A stretch of DNA of 24,695 bases from positions 1-24,695 of the IMG/VR virus record IMGVR_UViG_3300025138_000332. One strand, written 5' to 3'. Shown piece by piece: positions 1,679-24,695 of this stretch. Under the pieces are notes generated by a model. It saw only the letters and a program-made list of their open reading frames with translations. It made no database searches and was not told the origin of the DNA. Numbering within the stretch: the stretch's first letter is position 1; each line of letters opens with the position of its first letter. Origin of the DNA: a virus. Both the position numbers and the translations under genes were made by a program.

Positions 1679-2152
1679 CTATACTTCAAGAATCTTGTAG
1701 ATTTTTGTCTTTAATTCTTTTAACTCATCTCTTTGAGTAAGAAGGATAGTATTCTTGTAATGTTCCCAAGTAATTGGAAATTTTGTATCAACTACTCCAC
1801 CATTAAGTCTTTTAATTAGTTCATTTAAAGCATTTATAGTGTATAGTGTATTAGATTCTTTTTTTCTATGTACTAGAATAGTATTTTCTGGTAATGTGCT
1901 TAGATTTGCTTGGTCAATATTGTATGTACACACATATTCATCATTACTTTTAACATGCAAAACAAATATTTTATTATACATGATATTATATGTGGAAGTT
2001 AGCCTACTAATTAAAGGGTCTAACTCTTCTAATGTTGTAAAGGTGCAAAATAGTTTATTGTTCAAATCCTTTATGTTTAGTGTAGCGAATTCAGAGAAAT
2101 CGTCTACGGTATACATATTGACCTGATTATTTAAAATTGTAGGTGTTTCCAT
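1679..2152 (-). CDS. Conserved small protein of unknown function in replication cluster
   Basis: 157-aa protein with no enzymatic motif I can name. It is mixed alpha/beta, with an acidic aromatic segment near the N-terminus (MYTVDDFSEFATLNIKDL at residues 13-30), a central NKIFVLHVKSND strand region and the segment ILVHRKKESNTLYTINALNE at about 91-110. No signal peptide or membrane helix is seen. As drawn, it overlaps the polymerase stop by 26 nt. An internal ATG at 2116 (residue 13) would remove the overlap, and the better-looking part of the protein begins there, so the true start is uncertain. Its position between polymerase and ssDNA-binding protein suggests a replication accessory role, but the sequence itself does not show one. 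Confidence 0.72.
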   Translation of the reverse strand: METPTILNNQVNMYTVDDFSEFATLNIKDLNNKLFCTFTTLEELDPLISRLTSTYNIMYNKIFVLHVKSNDEYVCTYNIDQANLSTLPENTILVHRKKESNTLYTINALNELIKRLNGGVVDTKFPITWEHYKNTILLTQRDELKELKTKIYKILEV

Positions 2153-3398
2153 AACTTTCTTTTATTTGTAACTTATTATTATTAATTATTTGTTTAATCT
2201 CATCAATTAAATCTTCTTCACTATTATCAAAATCAAACAAAAACGAATCATAAGTATATAAAACCAACTTAGTTTTACGCCCTTTTAATGATCTAAATAT
2301 TTCCCACAATATACGAACATTCATTGCTGTCTCCAAATTTTGTAGTACATAATTTAATAGTTTTTGTGGTTTCATTTCATTACCATTTTTTAATAATTCC
2401 TCCTTTTTAAAAATATGTTTTGAAAGTGGGCATTCTATATAACCCTTTTTTTGGAAATTTTCCCACAACTCATCCGTATATGCTTGTACTTTTTGAAAAA
2501 ATTCCAGTTCTTTAAACTGCTCAAATACTCCTCCGTATAGTTGTTTAAATGTTAATTCTTTAGCTTTTTTGTAATCCACACCATACATTTTTGAAAATTC
2601 TTTGTGAATATCACTATCATTAAATGTATAACCCACCAACAAACCCAAAAGAGTAGGATGATAAGCACTAATATCCAACTCAATAAACTTATTATTACGT
2701 GGAATAAAACTTTCCCTACATCCATTATCCTTATTAAGTGCTGCATAATTTACTCCTCCGAATTTATTTGATGGTCTTGTTGTTGTTGTTTTAAAGTTGT
2801 ATTGCGTGTAGGTGATGTCTCTATCGATAGGGTGAAAGTGCGATTCAAATTTCTTTCTGTCAATTCGTATTCCACTTCGCTCCATGGCGTTGAAAACCAC
2901 TGTTGCTTTGTTGTTGTAAAAGTCGTTGATTGGCTCATTTATTCTTTCTTTTAATTCATTAAATAATTTTTCACAATATTCATAATGTTTAACTATAGGT
3001 ATTATTCTATTTATATCTTTTTTATCACTATGTTTACTATAAAAATAACTATGTGTTTTAGTGTATTCTGGTATATACGTAGGTGAATTTAGTGTTGTGT
3101 CTAAAAGGCTTTTAAATATTAAATAATGTAAAAATTCCTTTTTATCTCGTACATATATGTTATCAAATCCATTTAATACGCATTTAACCGCGTTTAAATC
3201 AATGTTTAATGTTTCACTATGGGATATGGTGATCATATACCCCTTTGCGCTATCTAACGGTTTAACATATATAGCACATATTTCGTTTTGAGTTGGGTGC
3301 TCTACATTATTGTAAGGAATTATTTCTACAAATGCATCTTTCTTACAATAGTTTTGAAACTTTTCTAATTGTTCATTATTTTCAATTAACCAAAACAT
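2127..3398 (-). CDS. Short family A (Pol I-like) DNA polymerase, no exonuclease seen
   Basis: 423-aa protein whose C-terminal half matches the family A polymerase palm and fingers. Motif A is ELDISAYHP at 240-248, with D242 aligning with E. coli Pol I D705. DIH follows at 263-265. Motif B (O helix) is K280-xxx-F284-xxx-Y288-G289, the K758/F762/Y766 pattern. Motif C is YTYDSF at 381-386, with D384 aligning with D882. The TTTTRPSNKFGGVNYAALN segment at 204-222 corresponds to the T-GR-SS...NLQ region. Oddities: motif C is YDS instead of HDE, Y276 stands at the R754 position, and the N-terminal ~200 residues lack a visible DxE exonuclease triad. At 423 aa it is much shorter than Pol I or T7 polymerase. 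It lies upstream of ssDNA-binding protein and uvsX, so it is a good candidate for the replicative or a repair polymerase. I recall that phage RM378 has separate polymerase and exonuclease genes, which would fit. Confidence 0.75.
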   Translation of the reverse strand: MFWLIENNEQLEKFQNYCKKDAFVEIIPYNNVEHPTQNEICAIYVKPLDSAKGYMITISHSETLNIDLNAVKCVLNGFDNIYVRDKKEFLHYLIFKSLLDTTLNSPTYIPEYTKTHSYFYSKHSDKKDINRIIPIVKHYEYCEKLFNELKERINEPINDFYNNKATVVFNAMERSGIRIDRKKFESHFHPIDRDITYTQYNFKTTTTRPSNKFGGVNYAALNKDNGCRESFIPRNNKFIELDISAYHPTLLGLLVGYTFNDSDIHKEFSKMYGVDYKKAKELTFKQLYGGVFEQFKELEFFQKVQAYTDELWENFQKKGYIECPLSKHIFKKEELLKNGNEMKPQKLLNYVLQNLETAMNVRILWEIFRSLKGRKTKLVLYTYDSFLFDFDNSEEDLIDEIKQIINNNKLQIKESYGNTYNFK

Positions 3399-14471: not shown

Positions 14472-14840
14472 TTATGCTTTTGTTGCTTTTGATGTAACAA
14501 AATCTGGTATTGATTGTTTTGGGGGTGGTGGAGTTTTTACAAATTTATCCATATACTTATTTCTTTGAGCGTTAGCTGGGTCTGATCTTTGAGCTTGTTT
14601 AAGTATATCTCTTCCTTTTTCTAAATCATTTGTAGAAGTTCCACTATTTTGTTTATTTTGTTCATCAAAATAGTCTTTAATTTTACTTAATGTAAAGTTT
14701 CTTAACCAAATAGGCATTTCATATACAGTATGCCAATCATACCCACCGTTACCATGAAATACTATATCATGGATTTGTGTAAATAAATTTTGTCGGTATT
14801 CTGCTGCTTGATTAGGCGTCAGGGAAAAAAAAATTTGCAC
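14472..14840 (-). CDS. Putative second tail-assembly chaperone ORF, probably made by frameshift
   Basis: 122-codon ORF between the gp26-type gene and the tape measure. Its only possible start inside the overlap is GTG (14840-14838), directly preceded by an in-frame TAG at 14843-14841. The next ATG is codon 42, inside what looks like the conserved core (HDIVFHGNGGYDWHTVYEMP, about residues 24-43), so normal initiation seems unlikely. The frame overlaps the end of the upstream gene by 29 nt, and the overlap contains nine consecutive T (14833-14825). This frame is +1 (equivalently -2) relative to the upstream gene. The C-terminus is Lys/Pro-rich (KTPPPPKQSIPDF). Position between tube and tape measure matches lambda G/GT-type chaperones, in which the second ORF is expressed as a fusion. 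A separately initiated small protein remains possible. Confidence 0.65.
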   Translation of the reverse strand: MQIFFSLTPNQAAEYRQNLFTQIHDIVFHGNGGYDWHTVYEMPIWLRNFTLSKIKDYFDEQNKQNSGTSTNDLEKGRDILKQAQRSDPANAQRNKYMDKFVKTPPPPKQSIPDFVTSKATKA

Positions 14841-15609
14841 CTATTGGAATGTCAATTACTTCAATTTCTCCGTTACTTAATTCTCGTTCAAACGAGAAAT
14901 CTACATCGGGTTGAACATCTGCTATATAATCTCTAAGTGCTTTTGCATCTCTTGCTAAGAAATAATTATCAACAAAATCTCTAATGTCTTTTTTATCTTC
15001 ATTACCATCTACTGATAATATCATATGTTTCATCCTAGTAGACATTTCAGGTACTACTGCTTTATTAAGTTTTTTTAATCCTCTTAATTCTGCCTCTACC
15101 TTTTTTTCAGTTTTATCAGTCATTAATTGAAATTCAATTAAATTTTCTCCATGAGGTGTTTGGAATGTAAATTTATTTTCTCCTTTAGTAAATAAAGATT
15201 CATCGAAATTTTTATTTTCTAAAGCAGCTAAATCAGCTGTGTAATCTTCACCTCCATATTTAAATTTATAATTAGCTCCATATCCTAATACACGTGATGC
15301 TATTAATAATGCATTTTTATCACCTACAATAAGATCCGATATATCTACACCTTCACTTACTACTAACGCTTCTAGTAATTTATCTACGATTATACCTTTT
15401 TGGATATATGCTTGATTTGTAATAATATCTTCTTCTTTTGCAGTCATATATTTCATTTCTATTACACCACTTGAAAGAGGATTATTAGAAGCATAAATAA
15501 TTCCTTTAGAGGGTAAATCAACCATTTCTGTTGGAAATCTAAATTTAGGTTTACTAGGAATAGTAGGTGTTGGTATTGCTACCTTTGGAGTTTTTGATTT
15601 TGAATCCAT
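14812..15609 (-). CDS. T4 gp26-like protein (T4_baseplate family), candidate tail-assembly chaperone
   Basis: 265-aa protein. After a Lys/Pro-rich N-terminus (about 1-24) comes FRFPTEMVDLPSKGIIYASN (23-42), then an acidic-hydrophobic stretch MTAKEEDIITNQAYIQKGII (54-73) and IVDKLLEALVV. This is the pattern I associate with the T4 gp26 / T4_baseplate family. The C-terminus ends PIGANFFFPDA. T4 gp26 is annotated as a baseplate hub assembly protein. The position here, immediately after sheath and tube and before the tape measure, is that of a tail-assembly chaperone, so it may bind the tape measure during tail building. It is the first gene after the terminator at 15657-15685 and carries its own late box. 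Its last codons run through a T9 tract that may send some ribosomes into the next ORF. Confidence 0.72.
   Translation of the reverse strand: MDSKSKTPKVAIPTPTIPSKPKFRFPTEMVDLPSKGIIYASNNPLSSGVIEMKYMTAKEEDIITNQAYIQKGIIVDKLLEALVVSEGVDISDLIVGDKNALLIASRVLGYGANYKFKYGGEDYTADLAALENKNFDESLFTKGENKFTFQTPHGENLIEFQLMTDKTEKKVEAELRGLKKLNKAVVPEMSTRMKHMILSVDGNEDKKDIRDFVDNYFLARDAKALRDYIADVQPDVDFSFERELSNGEIEVIDIPIGANFFFPDA
14825..14833 (-). other. T9 slippery run in gene overlap (candidate recoding site)
   Basis: The minus strand reads GCA AAT TTT TTT TTC CCT GAC GCC TAA in the upstream frame. Nine consecutive T fall inside the 29-nt window where both frames are open. A +1 or -2 slip of Phe-tRNA on UUU re-pairs perfectly and enters the frame of the second ORF. 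Polymerase slippage on the homopolymer would have the same effect. Confidence 0.55.
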
Positions 15610-15710: not shown

Positions 15711-16199
15711 TTAGAAATTCAAGACGCAGTAATCCATTCCTATTGTCATATCAATATTTTGTGCAGTTCCATCTTCATCCCAGTTATAATCCCCGAATGA
15801 GGCATCTTTAATAAATGCACCTTTTATAATCCATTCAGATACTACATCACCTACTGGTCCTAATACATCAATAGTTAAATCTTTTTTATAAAAATCACTA
15901 TATCCGTCTCTACCAGTTACTGATTCGTGGTGTAATCTTGTCCACTCCATTACTGCTTGAGCTCCTGAAGGTGTAATAGGATCAAATAATTGCATTGTAA
16001 TGTCATTCCATCTTAATTTACCTTTTACTTTTCTATAAGTATTGATATGATTAAGTACAATTTCATCTTGTGCGAATCCCATTCCACTAACACCTTTAAT
16101 AATATATGCTGGTATTCCAGCTACATACATAATGAATCTGTTAGCTACTTTAGGTTCAAATGCTGTGAAAAATATTTCGTTTGGGTTTAATACTGCCAT
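15711..16199 (-). CDS. 19: Tail tube protein (T4 gp19-like)
   Basis: 162-aa protein that would polymerise into the inner tail tube through which DNA passes. Seen: an opening NPNEIFFTAFEPKVANRFIM, the central HINTYRKVKGKLRWNDITMQ, then WTRLHHESVTGRDGYSDFYK and a C-terminal DASFGDYNWDEDGTAQNIDM. The phrasing 'ANRFIMYV..IPAYIIKG' and 'R..GKLRWNDI..QL.DPI..S' is typical of myovirus tube proteins. Length matches T4 gp19 (163 aa). It lies right behind the sheath gene with its own late box at 16220-16232 and a strong terminator after its stop, consistent with a separately controlled, highly expressed message. Confidence 0.93.
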   Translation of the reverse strand: MAVLNPNEIFFTAFEPKVANRFIMYVAGIPAYIIKGVSGMGFAQDEIVLNHINTYRKVKGKLRWNDITMQLFDPITPSGAQAVMEWTRLHHESVTGRDGYSDFYKKDLTIDVLGPVGDVVSEWIIKGAFIKDASFGDYNWDEDGTAQNIDMTIGMDYCVLNF

Positions 16200-16244: not shown

Positions 16245-18899
16245 TTATGATGGAAATGATGCTCCTGTTGGTAAAATGTTAAAGTCTAGGTAAATAAATT
16301 CAGCTGTTTTTGTTGGCTGTAAGTATATAGCACCTACCATTTGATTTCTATCAACTACATCGGGTCCATTATTTGAAGCATCCATTACAACTTTAAACGC
16401 GTATAAACCTTGTCTTTGTTGTACTGATTCTAGATATGGGTTTACTTGAGCTAAGAAGTTATTTCTTGTTGCTGCTGTATTTTGTTCAAATACTAAATTA
16501 TCTGCAATTTGTGAAATGTAAGATTTAAGTTCAATTAATAACCTTCTAACATTTACTCTATCTAATGCTGATGCTTGAGATTGTAATGTTTTTTGTCCAA
16601 ATACTACAACTCCTCTTCCTGGGAATGTTGCTATTGGGTTTACTTTTCCAGTATATAAATCATCTCTATTAGTTTGAGTTAATTTTCTTTCTGCTTGTAC
16701 TACTGTAGATAAACCACCTCTATTAATTCCGGCAGGTGCGAACCATGCCTCAGCTGCTTTATCGTTATACGCATATACTCCAGGCATTAACGCTGATGCT
16801 GGGCACCATACTAATTGTGCTGAATCTGGGTCTGTTATTTGAACCCATGGCCAATAAGTTGCTGCATATGAATTATCAACTGCTGCTGCTCCTCCTATTA
16901 TATTTGTAATACTTGAGTTATATGCTACTAAATCCATTATTAAAATTGCATCTCCTCTACTTTGTACATTACTTAATGCTAATGTAAGTGGAGTTGACAT
17001 CATGGAAGCTGCTTTATATAATCCTGGGGCTGTTAAGATGTTAAAACTATAATCATCTTTATTTGCTAATAAGTTGAATGCCGTTTGGTATCCTGTGTTT
17101 GTTTGACCCATTCCTCCATCTACTGTTGAATCTAATCCTTGAGTATCTGAATCTGTTATTTTTTCATAATATCCTATACCTGCTTTTCCACCAATATTAT
17201 TTCCAGTTGCTCCTGAAAATGAACCACTACCAGCTGCTGGAATAGATCCTGTGTATTGATCTTTTGCAATTCCACTATTATCAAAATAATCTGGAGTTTT
17301 TAAATCTACTGATTTAACTCTTACATATCTTGAAGCGTTTCTATAAGATCCTGTAGATTGTAAATACGGTTCAGCAGTTGTTCCATCTTTTAATGTTTCT
17401 GTCATGTCCCCAACAATTCTAGCTACGTAGTTAGATTGTTTTGGATCTAATGAAACATTTGGGAAAACTTCTAATATTGACTTAGATTTTGAATTATCAT
17501 TACCTTGTCTAACTATTAAACTAAATACACCTGATCCTGTATTTGGTGCTTGAACTTCCCATCTAACATTTTGTGCTGATCCACTTGCTAATGCTCCATT
17601 TGCATTTTCTGGGCCTACACTATTCATTATATCACCTTCTGCTATTGTTTCTAATGTTAATACATTTTGAGCTACTAAATCATCAGCTACTAGTGTGTAA
17701 GATAAATCTGTACCACCACCAATTAATCCATTAGCTACTGTTACTACATCATTAATTGCATATCCTGATCCTGCTGCTATAACTGTTGCATCTTCTGCTT
17801 CAACTATTAATTCTGATGTTTGGACTGGGAATGATAAATCTGCTGATGGAGATCCTATACCGGCTAATGCTACTGTTACTACATCCCCATTAGCATATCC
17901 TGATCCGGCTGATGCTGCTGTAACTGATGTAATTGTAGTAGTTAAATTAGGTTGAGTAAATGTTGCTGTTGCTGAACCTCCTAATGCTCCTGAATATCCT
18001 GTAAGTGAATTAATAGATGCTGCTGTTATTGTAAGTACCGAAGTAGCAGTATAACCTGTTCCACCAGATACAAGTTGAACACCTGTTAAAACACCTGCTC
18101 CACTAGCTCCACTAAAAGTTAATTGTACAACTCCACCTGATCCACCGTTGGCAACTGAAGCCCCACCTGTAACTAAATCAGCTACATTTATATTAGCTTG
18201 AGCTGGGAATGTAACATCTGTAATATTTGTTCCTGCTGTTGTTATTGTTGATGCAAAAAATGCATCTCCTGTTGCAGTAATAACTTCTACTGTTAAACCT
18301 GAACCACCTGCGGGTAATACTGATGTTGCTACATTATCAAATGTTCCAACTGAAGTTGCTCCATTTCTTCCGCCTGTAAGAGCACCGCCCATTACTTGAT
18401 TATCAGCAATTTTACCAGATTTAACTCCTTTAACTACTGTTAAGGTTAAACCTGATCCATTATTAGGAACTACTGTAGTTGCTTCACCAACATAAGTATC
18501 TGCTGTTCCTCCTACACCACCTGCTGTAAACGATCCTGATATATTTCTTCCTACTTCTAAAGCTCCACTTTCATCTTCTATAGCTCCAATATTACTTGAA
18601 ACTGCTGGTGCCCATGATCCTGAAGCAACTCTAGTTACAAGTAATGATGTACCACCATTATTAAAGTAGTTATAAGCTGAAATAGAAGTAAAATAAGTGT
18701 ATGTATCTGATCCACTTGTAAAGGTACTTCCATAATTAGCTAAATATTCTGAGTAACTAGTAACAAGTTTAGGTATGTTTACTCTTCCTAATACTGTAGG
18801 ACCTACAATAGCCGCACCTGCTTGAATAGGTTGTGACGTTATTTGCGATTGGTCGTTTTCTCTTGCTAATACTCCTGGGGAAATTAATGTTTCTGCCAT
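16245..18899 (-). CDS. 18: Contractile tail sheath protein (T4 gp18-like) with large insertion
   Basis: 884-aa sheath subunit that would form the contractile outer tail. The N-terminus has the usual sheath opening (ETLISPGVLARENDQSQI at 3-20, then QAGAAIVGPTVLGRVNIPK at 26-44 and SYSEYLANYGS). The C-terminus has EQNTAATRNNFLAQVNPYLE, GLYAFKVVMDASNN and FNILPTGASF. Between about residues 125 and 412 lies an insertion rich in Gly/Ser/Thr/Val, with repeated GSGYANGDVVTVA-type units at about 278-292, 331-345 and 376-390 and GSGLT-type turns at 148-152 and 199-203. T4 gp18 is 659 aa, so the extra length is explained by this insertion, which probably forms surface beta-domains. It has its own late box at 18915-18929. 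Confidence 0.93.
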   Translation of the reverse strand: MAETLISPGVLARENDQSQITSQPIQAGAAIVGPTVLGRVNIPKLVTSYSEYLANYGSTFTSGSDTYTYFTSISAYNYFNNGGTSLLVTRVASGSWAPAVSSNIGAIEDESGALEVGRNISGSFTAGGVGGTADTYVGEATTVVPNNGSGLTLTVVKGVKSGKIADNQVMGGALTGGRNGATSVGTFDNVATSVLPAGGSGLTVEVITATGDAFFASTITTAGTNITDVTFPAQANINVADLVTGGASVANGGSGGVVQLTFSGASGAGVLTGVQLVSGGTGYTATSVLTITAASINSLTGYSGALGGSATATFTQPNLTTTITSVTAASAGSGYANGDVVTVALAGIGSPSADLSFPVQTSELIVEAEDATVIAAGSGYAINDVVTVANGLIGGGTDLSYTLVADDLVAQNVLTLETIAEGDIMNSVGPENANGALASGSAQNVRWEVQAPNTGSGVFSLIVRQGNDNSKSKSILEVFPNVSLDPKQSNYVARIVGDMTETLKDGTTAEPYLQSTGSYRNASRYVRVKSVDLKTPDYFDNSGIAKDQYTGSIPAAGSGSFSGATGNNIGGKAGIGYYEKITDSDTQGLDSTVDGGMGQTNTGYQTAFNLLANKDDYSFNILTAPGLYKAASMMSTPLTLALSNVQSRGDAILIMDLVAYNSSITNIIGGAAAVDNSYAATYWPWVQITDPDSAQLVWCPASALMPGVYAYNDKAAEAWFAPAGINRGGLSTVVQAERKLTQTNRDDLYTGKVNPIATFPGRGVVVFGQKTLQSQASALDRVNVRRLLIELKSYISQIADNLVFEQNTAATRNNFLAQVNPYLESVQQRQGLYAFKVVMDASNNGPDVVDRNQMVGAIYLQPTKTAEFIYLDFNILPTGASFPS

Positions 18900-21060: not shown

Positions 21061-24000
21061 TTATTTAGTTGCTATACCATTTTCTACATCAACACTATAA
21101 GCTACATAGAAAGTATCTCTACCCGCCTCACCATCTTCAACAATTGATTCTGGTTCAAAACCAACATATATGAAATCTCCTCCACCTATTCCTTCAGCTA
21201 CATTAATAGTACCTCCATCACAGCAACTATATCTTCCACTACTTACTCCCCATCCTAAAGAAGTTGTGGCTGATTGAGCTCCTTTTTCACTTACAAAACA
21301 ACTAGCTTGAGTAAGCCATACTTTTCCAGAATAAGTAGTTGATCCAGCATTTAAAGGAGATACTGATATGTAAATTCTAAATCTACGATTATAACCTTCT
21401 CCTGTTTCTCCTTGAGAAAATAATTCTGGGATTTTAACTCCATATCTTGCTTGTTCAGTTGCTAAAATGGTTGTTCCTGATCCTGCAAATATTGTTGATG
21501 TACCAACTTTATCCCAACTTTCACTATTCCACGTTCCCTTACTTCCCCCAGCATAAATTGTACTTCCTCCTTGTACTACTCCTGTAAAGAATGAATGTTC
21601 TACTACTCGTGTCCAAGCTGTATTTCCTCCACCACTACCGGTTCCAGATGTACCTGATGAACCTGATGTACCCGAAGATCCTGAAGATCCTGATCCCCCC
21701 TGTTTACCTGATGAACCTGATGAACCTGAAGAACCTGAAGCACCTGATGATCCTGATGATCCTGGTAAACCATTTGCACCTGAAGTACCTGATGAACCTG
21801 ATGATCCTGGTAAACCATTTGCACCTGAAGTACCTGATGATCCTGATGAACCATTACTTGATGTACCTGAAGATCCTGATGAACCTGGATTACCATTTCC
21901 ACCTGAAGTACCTGATGATCCTGATGAGCCATTGCTTGAAGTACCTGATGAACCTGAAGATCCATTACTTGATGTACCTGATGAACCTGATGAGCCATTA
22001 CTTGATGTACCTGATGAACCTGATGAGCCATTACTTGATGTACCTGATGAACCTGAAGATCCGTTACTTGATGTACCTGAAGATCCACTTGAACCATCTT
22101 CACCTGTATCACCTGTTTTACCTGATGAACCACTTGAACCTGAAACACCTGATGATCCACTTGAACCTGAAGCACCTGATGATCCTGATGAACCTGTTTT
22201 ACCTGAAGATCCTGAAGAACCTGAAGCACCTGATGAACCTGAAGAACCTGAAGCACCTGATGATCCTGATGAACCTGATTTACCTGAAGAACCACTTGAA
22301 CCATCTTCACCTGTATCACCTGTTTTACCTGATGAACCACTTGAGCCTGAAGCACCACTTGAACCTGATGAGCCATCTGTACCTGAAGTACCTGATGAAC
22401 CTGAAGATCCGTTACTTGATGTACCTGATGATCCTGATGAACCATTGCTTGATGTACCGCTTGAACCTGAAGATCCGTTGCTTGATGTACCTGATGAACC
22501 TGAAGATCCGTTACTTGATGTACCTGAAGAACCACTTGAACCATCTTCACCTGTATCACCTGTTTTACCTGATGAACCACTTGAACCTGAAGCACCTGAT
22601 GATCCTGATGAACCATTGCTTGAAGTACCTGATGAACCTGAAGATCCGTTACTTGATGTACCTGAAGATCCTGATGAACCTGTTACACCTGATGAACCTG
22701 ATGAGCCATTACTTGATGTACCTGATGAACCTGATGAGCCATTACTTGATGTACCTGATGAACCTGAAGATCCGTTACTTGATGTACCTGAAGATCCACT
22801 TGAACCATCTTCACCTGTATCACCTGTTTTACCTGATGAACCACTTGAACCTGAAACACCTGATGATCCACTTGAACCTGAAGCACCTGATGATCCTGAT
22901 GAACCTGTTTTACCTGAAGATCCTGAAGAACCTGAAGCACCTGATGAACCTGAAGAACCTGAAGCACCTGATGATCCTGATGAACCTGATTTACCTGAAG
23001 AACCACTTGAACCATCTTCACCTGTATCACCTGTTTTACCTGATGAACCACTTGAACCTGAAGCACCACTTGAACCTGATGTACCTGAGGATCCTGAAGT
23101 ACCTGAAGAACCACTTGAACCTGAAGCACCACTTGAACCTGATGTACCTGATGATCCTGAAGAGCCATTACTTGAAGTACCTGATGAACCTGAAGATCCA
23201 TTGCTTGAAGTACCTGATGAACCTGAAGAGCCATTACTTGATGTACCTGATGAACCTGAAGATCCATTACTTGATGTACCACTTGAACCTGAAGATCCGT
23301 TACTTGATGTACCTGATGATCCTGATGAGCCATTGCTTGATGTACCACTTGAACCTGAAGAACCTGATGATACATAACCACAAATTAAAAAATTCTGTCC
23401 TGTTGATGGTGTTGGAATATTTGAAAAAGTTCCTGATTGATAATCTATTGCTACAATATCTCCCGATACTCCTACTAATTCATAAATTGCAGTACCCGTA
23501 AAGGTTGTTCCACCTGTGTTTGCTGGTCCTAATGTAATAGTATCACCTATATTTAAATTCTGAAGTGATAGTATTTGTGGAGCTGTTGCTGAAAAACATT
23601 GAATCTGAGTTATATTACCTGCAGTTAATGTAGTATTGTTACTACTATCTAAAAAGTCTACTTGATCATCATTAGTTACATTATTAGGTGTATATTTACC
23701 TGTTTGACAATTACTTCCATCATCACCTGAAGTACCTGATGAACCACTTGAACCTGAAGCACCACTTGAACCTGATGTACCTGAAGATCCTGAAGTACCT
23801 GATGAACCACTTGAACCTGAAGCACCACTTGAACCTGATGTACCTGAAGATCCTGAAGAACCTGAAGCACCACTTGATCCTGATGAGCCATCTGCACCTG
23901 AAGTACCTGATGAACCACTTGAGCCTGAAGCACCACTTGAACCTGATGTACCTGAAGATCCTGAAGAACCTGAAGCACCACTTGAACCTGATGAGCCTGA

Positions 24001-24695
24001 TTCACCACTTGAACCTGAAGTACCTGATGAGCCACTTGAGCCTGATTCACCACTTGAACCTGAAGTACCTGAAGATCCTGAAGAACCTGAGGCACCACTT
24101 GAACCCGATGAGCCATTACTTGATGTACCTGATGAACCTGATGAACCTGATGATGTAAAGGCACAAATAGTAAAAATATCTCCGTTACTAACTGATCCAA
24201 AACTGCCAGTACCACTATAATCTATATCTACTACACCCGTACCTGTAGTGCTTATTAACTCATACTGTACTCCATTACCATTTGCATCTGTTAATGTAAC
24301 TACATCACCAGCATTTAAAGCATTTAATAATATAAAAGTTGGATTGGTGTTATTAATAAATCTTAATGATACAACATTACTAGCTGTTGTAGTACTAGCA
24401 TTTCCAGAATCTAACATATTAAATTCCCCAGAGCTTGGTGTATTAGTAGAAAATTCAGTCAATTGACAATTACCATCTACACCACTTGTACCAGAAGAGC
24501 CACTTGTACCAGAAGAGCCACTTGTACCAGAAGAGCCACTTGTACCAGAAGAGCCACTTGTACCAGAAGATCCACTTGAACCTGAAGCACCACTTGAACC
24601 TGATGTACCTGAAGATCCTGAAGAACCTGAAGCACCACTTGATCCTGATGAGCCATCTTTACCTGAAGTACCTGATGAACCACTTGAACCTGGTT
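21061..24695 (-). CDS. Giant collagen-like (G-x-y repeat) fibre/adhesin, 5' end outside window
   Basis: At least 1210 codons, open through the right edge. A TTG at 24462 is not the start, because the same frame continues upstream with PGSSGSSGTSGKDGSSG-type repeats to the last base. Layout from the N side: collagen-like repeats (24695-24480); globular domain 1 (about 24471-24148, NCQ...TICAF); repeats (to about 23720); globular domain 2 (about 23718-23372, NCQ...LICGY); a long repeat array (about 23370-21640) mixing G-S-S/G-T-S/G-A-S triplets with GKTGDTGEDG and GTSSNGSSGSS units; and a non-repetitive C-terminal head (about 21640-21061) with RRFRIYISVSP, SRYSCCDGGT-like cysteines and DFIYVGFEPES. 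Such proteins form trimeric fibres on virions, with the terminal head a likely receptor-binding part. That function is inferred. The repeats are rich in Ser rather than Pro, unlike animal collagen. Confidence 0.85.
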   Translation of the reverse strand, partial: PGSSGSSGTSGKDGSSGSSGASGSSGSSGTSGSSGASGSSGSSGTSGSSGTSGSSGTSGSSGTSGSSGTSGVDGNCQLTEFSTNTPSSGEFNMLDSGNASTTTASNVVSLRFINNTNPTFILLNALNAGDVVTLTDANGNGVQYELISTTGTGVVDIDYSGTGSFGSVSNGDIFTICAFTSSGSSGSSGTSSNGSSGSSGASGSSGSSGTSGSSGESGSSGSSGTSGSSGESGSSGSSGASGSSGSSGTSGSSGASGSSGSSGTSGADGSSGSSGASGSSGSSGTSGSSGASGSSGSSGTSGSSGTSGSSGASGSSGSSGTSGDDGSNCQTGKYTPNNVTNDDQVDFLDSSNNTTLTAGNITQIQCFSATAPQILSLQNLNIGDTITLGPANTGGTTFTGTAIYELVGVSGDIVAIDYQSGTFSNIPTPSTGQNFLICGYVSSGSSGSSGTSSNGSSGSSGTSSNGSSGSSGTSSNGSSGSSGTSSNGSSGSSGTSSNGSSGSSGTSSNGSSGSSGTSGSSGASGSSGSSGTSGSSGTSGSSGASGSSGSSGKTGDTGEDGSSGSSGKSGSSGSSGASGSSGSSGASGSSGSSGKTGSSGSSGASGSSGSSGVSGSSGSSGKTGDTGEDGSSGSSGTSSNGSSGSSGTSSNGSSGSSGTSSNGSSGSSGVTGSSGSSGTSSNGSSGSSGTSSNGSSGSSGASGSSGSSGKTGDTGEDGSSGSSGTSSNGSSGSSGTSSNGSSGSSGTSSNGSSGSSGTSSNGSSGSSGTSGTDGSSGSSGASGSSGSSGKTGDTGEDGSSGSSGKSGSSGSSGASGSSGSSGASGSSGSSGKTGSSGSSGASGSSGSSGVSGSSGSSGKTGDTGEDGSSGSSGTSSNGSSGSSGTSSNGSSGSSGTSSNGSSGSSGTSSNGSSGSSGTSSNGSSGSSGTSGGNGNPGSSGSSGTSSNGSSGSSGTSGANGLPGSSGSSGTSGANGLPGSSGSSGASGSSGSSGSSGKQGGSGSSGSSGTSGSSGTSGTGSGGGNTAWTRVVEHSFFTGVVQGGSTIYAGGSKGTWNSESWDKVGTSTIFAGSGTTILATEQARYGVKIPELFSQGETGEGYNRRFRIYISVSPLNAGSTTYSGKVWLTQASCFVSEKGAQSATTSLGWGVSSGRYSCCDGGTINVAEGIGGGDFIYVGFEPESIVEDGEAGRDTFYVAYSVDVENGIATK
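21976..22370 (-). repeat. 395-bp near-perfect direct repeat, copy 1
   Basis: By direct reading this segment matches 22687-23081 with an offset of 711 bp (237 codons, in frame) and one visible mismatch (G at 22344 against A at 23055). It includes two GKTGDTGEDG-encoding blocks. This points to a recent internal duplication or to gene conversion. Confidence 0.85.
22687..23081 (-). repeat. 395-bp near-perfect direct repeat, copy 2
   Basis: Partner of 21976-22370. The match ends on the left where copy 2 reads ttac|acctgatg and on the right where copy 1 continues with agcc and copy 2 with tacc. Confidence 0.85.
23372..23718 (-). other. Globular domain 2 of the collagen-like protein
   Basis: Non-repetitive domain of about 115 residues, from NCQTGKYTPNN to NFLICGYV. 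Shared features with domain 1: the opening Asn-Cys-Gln, a D-(F/M)-LDS segment, a central (L/A)N(I/A)GD(T/V)(I/V)TL strand, YEL(V/I), (A/D)IDY and a closing ICxx before SSGSSG. The conserved outer cysteines could pair. No known family was recognised. Confidence 0.75.
24148..24471 (-). other. Globular domain 1 of the collagen-like protein
   Basis: About 108 residues, from NCQLTEFSTN to FTICAFTSS, homologous by eye to domain 2 (same opening, same GD-VTL strand, same IDY and same closing cysteine). It is flanked on both sides by collagen-like repeats, giving a beads-on-a-rod layout. Confidence 0.75.
24482..24571 (-). repeat. Five tandem 18-bp units
   Basis: The plus-strand unit CCACTTGTACCAGAAGAG occurs five times in a row, exact except for the last base of the fifth copy. 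It encodes SSGTSG repeats with TCT and ACA/AGT codon choices unlike the TCA-rich codons of the rest of the array, so it looks like a recent local expansion. Confidence 0.9.

Follow-up and report, generated by a model that had tools for sequence, protein, structure and literature searches.

Two overlapping reading frames lie between the tail tube and tape measure genes

We analysed a 24,695-nucleotide stretch of DNA from a T4-like phage (IMG/VR record IMGVR_UViG_3300025138_000332, positions 1 to 24,695; hereafter 'the window'), in which two overlapping open reading frames, ORF1 and ORF2, are candidates for the two parts of a tail assembly chaperone (TAC). The locus contains the following features:

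16245..18899, minus strand: tail sheath protein (phrog_23, E 5.5e-67; PF04984, PF17482)
15711..16199, minus strand: tail tube protein of the gp19 type (phrog_4542, E 1.1e-21), adjoining ORF1 upstream
15609-14812, minus strand: ORF1, the TAC-N candidate; zero-frame product of 265 aa, gp26-like (phrog_150, 'baseplate hub')
14841..14843, minus strand: TAG in the +1 frame, immediately 5' of the ORF2 GTG
14840-14472, minus strand: ORF2, the TAC-C candidate; +1-frame extension, 122 codons open from GTG
14824..14832, minus strand: putative slip site TTT TTT TTC (zero frame), within the T9 run at 14825-14833, defined by motif counts and codon conservation
14812..14814, minus strand: zero-frame stop TAA of ORF1, shortly past the slip codons
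10935..14441, minus strand: tape measure protein, 1168 aa, adjoining ORF2 downstream (BLASTP to the annotated tape measure protein of phage immuto, E 8e-30)

The 3' end of ORF1 reads ATA GGT GCA AAT TTT TTT TTC CCT GAC GCC TAA, and the +1 frame after the TAG reads GTG CAA ATT TTT TTT TCC CTG ACG and stays open to 14472. The overlap is 29 nt long, ORF2 lies in the +1 (equivalently, -2) frame relative to ORF1, and its first ATG is codon 42. An earlier note on this DNA had pointed out the T9 run in the overlap, the TAG directly before the GTG, the lack of an ATG before codon 42 and the need for a shift of +1 or -2, all of which the sequence bears out; the fusion that the note put at about 385-390 residues, however, is computed to be 378 aa long for a +1 shift and 379 aa for -2. 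Together, the upstream TAG and the zero-frame stop confine any shift to the 26 nt between 14840 and 14815, inside which the T run is the sole slippery stretch. The part of ORF2 read after the shift would span about 14825-14472.

Elsewhere in the window, a long frame at 21061-24695 encodes SSGSSGTSG and collagen-like repeats (over 1200 aa) and runs off the contig; it likely specifies a fibre or adhesin. The 423-aa product of 2127-3398, which overlaps the next ORF (1679-2152), gives a weak match to DNA polymerase family A (E 4e-4) and seems shorter than the usual phage polymerases.

The +1 frame relation is shared by all distinct relatives

We gathered homologous loci from viral contigs and phage records by ORF1 similarity alone, blind to the slip site, which yielded 242 usable loci collapsing to 212 distinct ones; the counts given below are of homologous loci and not of independent events. 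One locus (L087), with a longer ORF1 tail and no clear +1-frame ORF2, was excluded from the counts. In 212/212 distinct loci ORF2 is a +1-frame extension, reaching 58-114 aa beyond the ORF1 stop in the complete ones, and we saw no in-frame ORF1-ORF2 fusion among the 212. The same +1 relation is found in 11 more loci with a readable junction from bacterial and archaeal metagenome-assembled genomes (MAGs), mostly of Flavobacteriales; the isolates immuto, Mel-JY01, SP-15, GXN1 and RM378 are among the 212. The order tube - TAC - tape measure seen in the window recurs in immuto and SP-15, and all the relatives that we examined bear out the earlier note's proposal of a recoded TAC pair that lies between the tube and tape measure genes and has a gp26-family protein as its first partner.

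Where MAGs give the host, this +1 clade is mostly Bacteroidota-associated; it also includes phages of Bacillus (SP-15), Streptococcus (GXN1), Microcystis (Mel-JY01) and Rhodothermus (RM378). An instance of this +1 site, in a TAC gene near 2.76 Mb of CP070664.1 (L270), comes from a record labelled as a chromosome MAG of candidate division WOR-3; the gene could belong to a prophage or a tail-like particle.

As judged by substitution shares of 0.24/0.14/0.62 over the three codon positions, ORF2 evolves as a coding frame, and its conservation starts at the slip site (FFGLT..). In the immuto, SP-15 and S-RIM8 records the extension is annotated as a protein of 36-45 aa from an internal start codon (L082 4345-4455, L086 4309-4428, L170 3232-3369). 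Current annotations thus miss the ORF2 extension, and public records need a joined CDS.

Phe codons at the slip site are conserved beyond their amino acids

Across the 212 loci the conserved element is TTT TTT T or a close variant, located 3-8 codons ahead of the ORF1 stop and occurring as T7GGCCT, T7ACCCT or T8CCCT. The expectation of a conserved T run with the same frame relation is therefore upheld as regards the frame (212/212) and the TTT TTT T core, but not as regards the length: T9 itself is not conserved. The window belongs to a minority with AAT as the preceding codon, hence its longer run. Its site, AAT TTT TTT TTC, recurs with the same frame relation in L004, L005 and L006, while L002, L003 and L007 have AAC TTT TTT TTC, again with the same frame relation.

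The commonest sites are TTT TTT TGG CCT (154), TTT TTT TAC CCT (23) and TTT TTT TTC CCT (19), followed by TTT CTT TGG CCT (6), CTT TTT TGG CCT (3) and TTC TTT T (2), with single cases in SP-15 (TTT TTT CAC), GXN1 (TTC TTT CGT) and RM378 (TTT TTT TGG AAT). Broken runs arise on separate branches of the tree: TTT CTT T in L181/L188 and in L047/L070/L082, TTC TTT T in L178 and in L182, and CTT TTT T in L141 and in L149. In all loci but L084 the second codon reads TTT or CTT and the next base is T or C, so a P-site YUU could slip +1 onto UUY there; in L084 (AAC TTT CTA TTC) +1 re-pairing is available only one codon earlier, at TTT-C.

The Phe, Phe and Pro codons of the site rank 1-3 among 147 conserved degenerate columns of ORF1: TTT is used at the two Phe positions in 205/205 and 206/209 loci (206/209 being the first slip codon) and CCT in 208/210, compared with 50-83% TTT at the other conserved Phe columns. 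Among 100 diversity-reduced homologues, 97/97 Phe residues at the second slip codon are encoded by TTT (P about 1.6e-11 given the codon usage of the ORF1 body); outside the site, the ORF1 body of these 100 loci is free of TTT TTT T. Conservation of CCT is accounted for by the Leu codon of the +1 frame. The third bases of the Phe codons, in contrast, are unexplained by dual coding if the shift takes place at the second codon, and slippage requires them.

Alternative explanations

We weighed four other ways of accounting for the overlap. Homopolymers are error-prone, and a T run misread in sequencing or assembly could have split one continuous gene, a case that the earlier note had raised; recurrence of the frame relation across 212 distinct loci, the five isolates among them, refutes it, and the loci with AAT or AAC TTT TTT TTC described above agree, leaving this reading with a negligible probability. 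That ORF2 is a separate gene, started from the GTG or translationally coupled at the ORF1 stop, is more plausible yet still very improbable. Such overlaps are common among phages, and in the window and its nearest relatives a GTG is indeed present at the beginning of ORF2, right after the TAG, from which weak independent initiation is possible. It is, however, the Gly-Ala codons of the zero frame that dictate this GTG, the conservation of ORF2 sets in at the slip site, and 72/211 relatives have no ATG, GTG or TTG at all in the interval from the preceding in-frame stop to 10 codons beyond the slip. The earlier note had envisaged relatives with a clear ORF2 start and no conserved run; we found the opposite.

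Transcriptional slippage, by which the mRNA would lose one T or gain two, had been offered as an option in the earlier note, and the T9 of the window is long enough for slippage-prone polymerases. In most relatives, however, the run is T7, and in several lineages it is reduced to 3-4 T (TTTCTTT, TTCTTTT) with the frame relation intact, which rules out a common mechanism of transcript slippage on a homopolymer; nor would such slippage need the strong codon phasing of TTT TTT T in the zero frame. We consider this explanation very unlikely, on a par with independent initiation of ORF2. The strongest competitor, although itself improbable, is -2 ribosomal frameshifting of the Mu or arterivirus type at the T run, which would reach the same frame with one extra residue. 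On T7-T9 the -2 re-pairing of tRNA-Phe equals +1 in quality, and the first slip codon, too, is strongly TTT. The two readings part in the divergent lineages: at TTC TTT T (L178, L182) and TTC TTT C (GXN1) a -2 shift would place tRNA-Phe onto UCU, and at AAC TTT CTA (L084) onto ACU, whereas +1 re-pairing stays good in each. Furthermore, the base preceding the run is not part of any conserved tandem -2 site. Of the two shifts left open by the earlier note, +1 is thus favoured.

A +1 shift would yield two forms of a tail assembly chaperone

Taken together, comparison of the sequences leads us to propose that ORF1 and ORF2 very probably (at a probability of about 0.87) constitute a TAC-N/TAC-NC pair expressed via +1 ribosomal frameshifting. 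In the proposed mechanism, most ribosomes would terminate at the TAA, producing the gp26-like TAC-N of 265 aa, and a fraction would shift +1 at (UUU) UUU-U, a few codons ahead of the stop, with the P-site tRNA-Phe slipping from UUU onto the overlapping UUU(Y) one base downstream. The shifted ribosomes would continue in the +1 frame to yield TAC-NC (378 aa), of which ORF2 would form the helical C-terminal domain. On the model of lambda G/GT, we would expect TAC-N to coat the tape measure protein, encoded by the next gene, and TAC-NC to recruit subunits of the tail tube, encoded by the previous one. We infer the occurrence of the shift, its frequency and the chaperone function alike from sequence comparison. 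Since immuto is grown in the laboratory on Flavobacterium, the +1 claim is directly testable.

We found no clear downstream stimulator: the folding z-score over 90 nt is -0.93 (control, -0.21), with no common stem. A recurring CCATGAAATAGTATTTCATGG stem in HEIVFHG was considered as a stimulatory hairpin and rejected, given that ordinary codon usage accounts for most of its paired bases and that it lies ~60 nt downstream. Nor is an upstream SD-like stimulator conserved (27% versus 12% in controls). Separately, a CCATGAtATAGTATTTCATGG hairpin is present in the ORF2 HDIVFHG codons (window 14750-14780, minus strand) and recurs in relatives; its Ile codon is ATA in 47/57 cases compared with a 33% background, even though the base sits in the loop.

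Cyanophage homologues use the same Phe-Phe site in the -1 frame

A scan with S-RIM8 gp26 returned a cyanophage set of 76 distinct loci, and 76/76 combine a -1-frame ORF2 with the site T TTT TTC. In a maximum-likelihood tree the +1 sequences fall on one side of a branch supported at 100/99, with the -1 group and the T4-type proteins on the other, long branches being involved.

The base ahead of the run is opposite in the two groups: in the +1 clade it is mostly C or G, and T is avoided. For Asn, Ser (AGY) and Asp codons directly before the run, the T:C ratio is 2:55 at the cluster level, against an ORF1 body ratio of 2768:749 (Fisher P 5e-34, a nominal value since the loci are related). In four-fold degenerate boxes G or C accounts for 24/27 codons before the run, compared with 15% in the ORF1 body, and A is also rare at this position in the +1 clade. 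Avoidance of T before the run removes the -1 heptamer. Few +1 loci have T at this position, the window (AAT) being among them; a -1 shift in the window would hit TGA within a few codons.

We think it probable, with less confidence than we attach to the +1 shift itself, that a single TAC family is recoded in opposite directions at the same Phe-Phe site: -1 at T TTT TTC in the Kyanoviridae-type group and +1 at S TTT TTT T (S = C/G) in the window clade, the preceding base acting as a polarity guard that is selected to be T in the former and C or G, neither T nor A, in the latter. If this is true, +1 slippage has a requirement at the preceding base beyond avoidance of -1.

ORF1 and ORF2 relate to T4 gp26 and gp51

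ORF1 matches phrog_150 ('baseplate hub') at E 3.7e-7 over profile positions 8-232/282, and the +1 fusion lengthens the match to 8-274/282 in the window and to position 281 in L178. The same profile matches both T4 gp26 (6.7e-71) and T4 gp51 (2.6e-84), and gp51 additionally matches phrog_634, a family of short 'baseplate hub assembly catalyst' proteins; T4 gp51 can thus be seen as a gp26-like domain extended by a C-terminal one, that is, as a TAC-NC encoded by a separate gene. In profile comparisons ORF2 aligns, weakly, to the gp51 C-terminus, both that of T4 (E 0.004-0.009) and that of the cyanophage type (E 3.7e-6, also weak). In BFVD, ORF1 matches gp26-type proteins (e.g. that of SP-15, E 7.8e-16). 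PF12322 (T4_baseplate) matches T4 gp26, gp51 and the RM378 protein but not the window ORF1, which we read as divergence.

The structures of ORF1 and ORF2 were predicted separately. Although a Foldseek search of the ORF1 AlphaFold model (pLDDT 89) against the PDB gave no match below E 1, the HK97 tail assembly chaperone 2ob9 ranks first among 814 re-aligned PDB chains (Z 4.8, rmsd 7.3; next best 2.4), a resemblance of the model that is suggestive only. ORF2 is predicted to be helical, its first helix beginning right past the slip site, and its model had no convincing fold match. CxxC pairs resembling a zinc ribbon are present in the TAC-N of the distant relatives L084, L085, L086 and L173, the window ORF1 being without them; T4 gp51 also has a CPKC.

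Comparison with known systems

The TAC role of T4-like gp26/gp51 is credited, in two later papers (PMC10885494, PMC12846349), to Vladimirov, Gautam & Davidson 2022 (Virology 566:9-15), which we know through these citing papers only; a chaperone role for the T4 gp26 family, which the earlier note had anticipated, is therefore supported by our analysis but is not new. The window pair resembles T4 gp26/gp51 in that ORF1 belongs to phrog_150 as both do, ORF2 aligns to the gp51 C-terminus and the TAC-N/TAC-NC logic is shared; in T4, however, the two forms come from separate genes, whereas in the window clade they would arise by the +1 shift. The citing papers describe poly-T -1 shifts for other T4-like groups.

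Frameshifting in TAC genes is classic: it is mostly -1, with -2 in Mu and a 'very likely +1' in HSTV-2 (PMC5009743). Lambda G/GT (Atkins et al. 2016, PMC5009743) and SPP1 17.5/17.5* (UUUUUUC; PMC6316719) likewise have a two-form chaperone beside the tape measure gene, with the shift placed towards the 3' end of the first ORF, but theirs is a -1 shift at an XXXYYYZ heptamer, whereas the window clade is +1 and avoids the heptamer. Among the loci collected, ORF2 in the -1 frame is confined to the cyanophage-type group, and all 212 loci of the window clade are +1. The Mu -2 shift (PMC5009743) reaches the same relative frame, but tRNA re-pairing two bases back fails in lineages with a broken run. 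The haloarchaeal myovirus HSTV-2 (PMC5009743) shares the +1 direction in a TAC gene; it is an archaeal virus, and the likeness is one of direction.

In the +1 site of prfB (RF2), CUU-UGA, a P-site YUU slips onto UUU in the manner proposed for the window clade (PMC10885494), and CUU-UGG, found in immuto, L047, L070, L181, L188 and L189, is one base away from it. The prfB A-site, however, holds a stop codon, whereas that of the window clade is a sense codon (UGG, UAC or UUC), with no conserved SD-like element.

A literature search for +1 TAC shifts or frameshifts in Flavobacterium phages found nothing specific. While the kind of recoding is known, the +1 direction and the opposite slip-site signature look new, priority being uncertain. 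With the same Phe-Phe codons, opposite directions and an oppositely selected flanking base, the -1 and +1 groups provide a natural experiment on frameshift direction.
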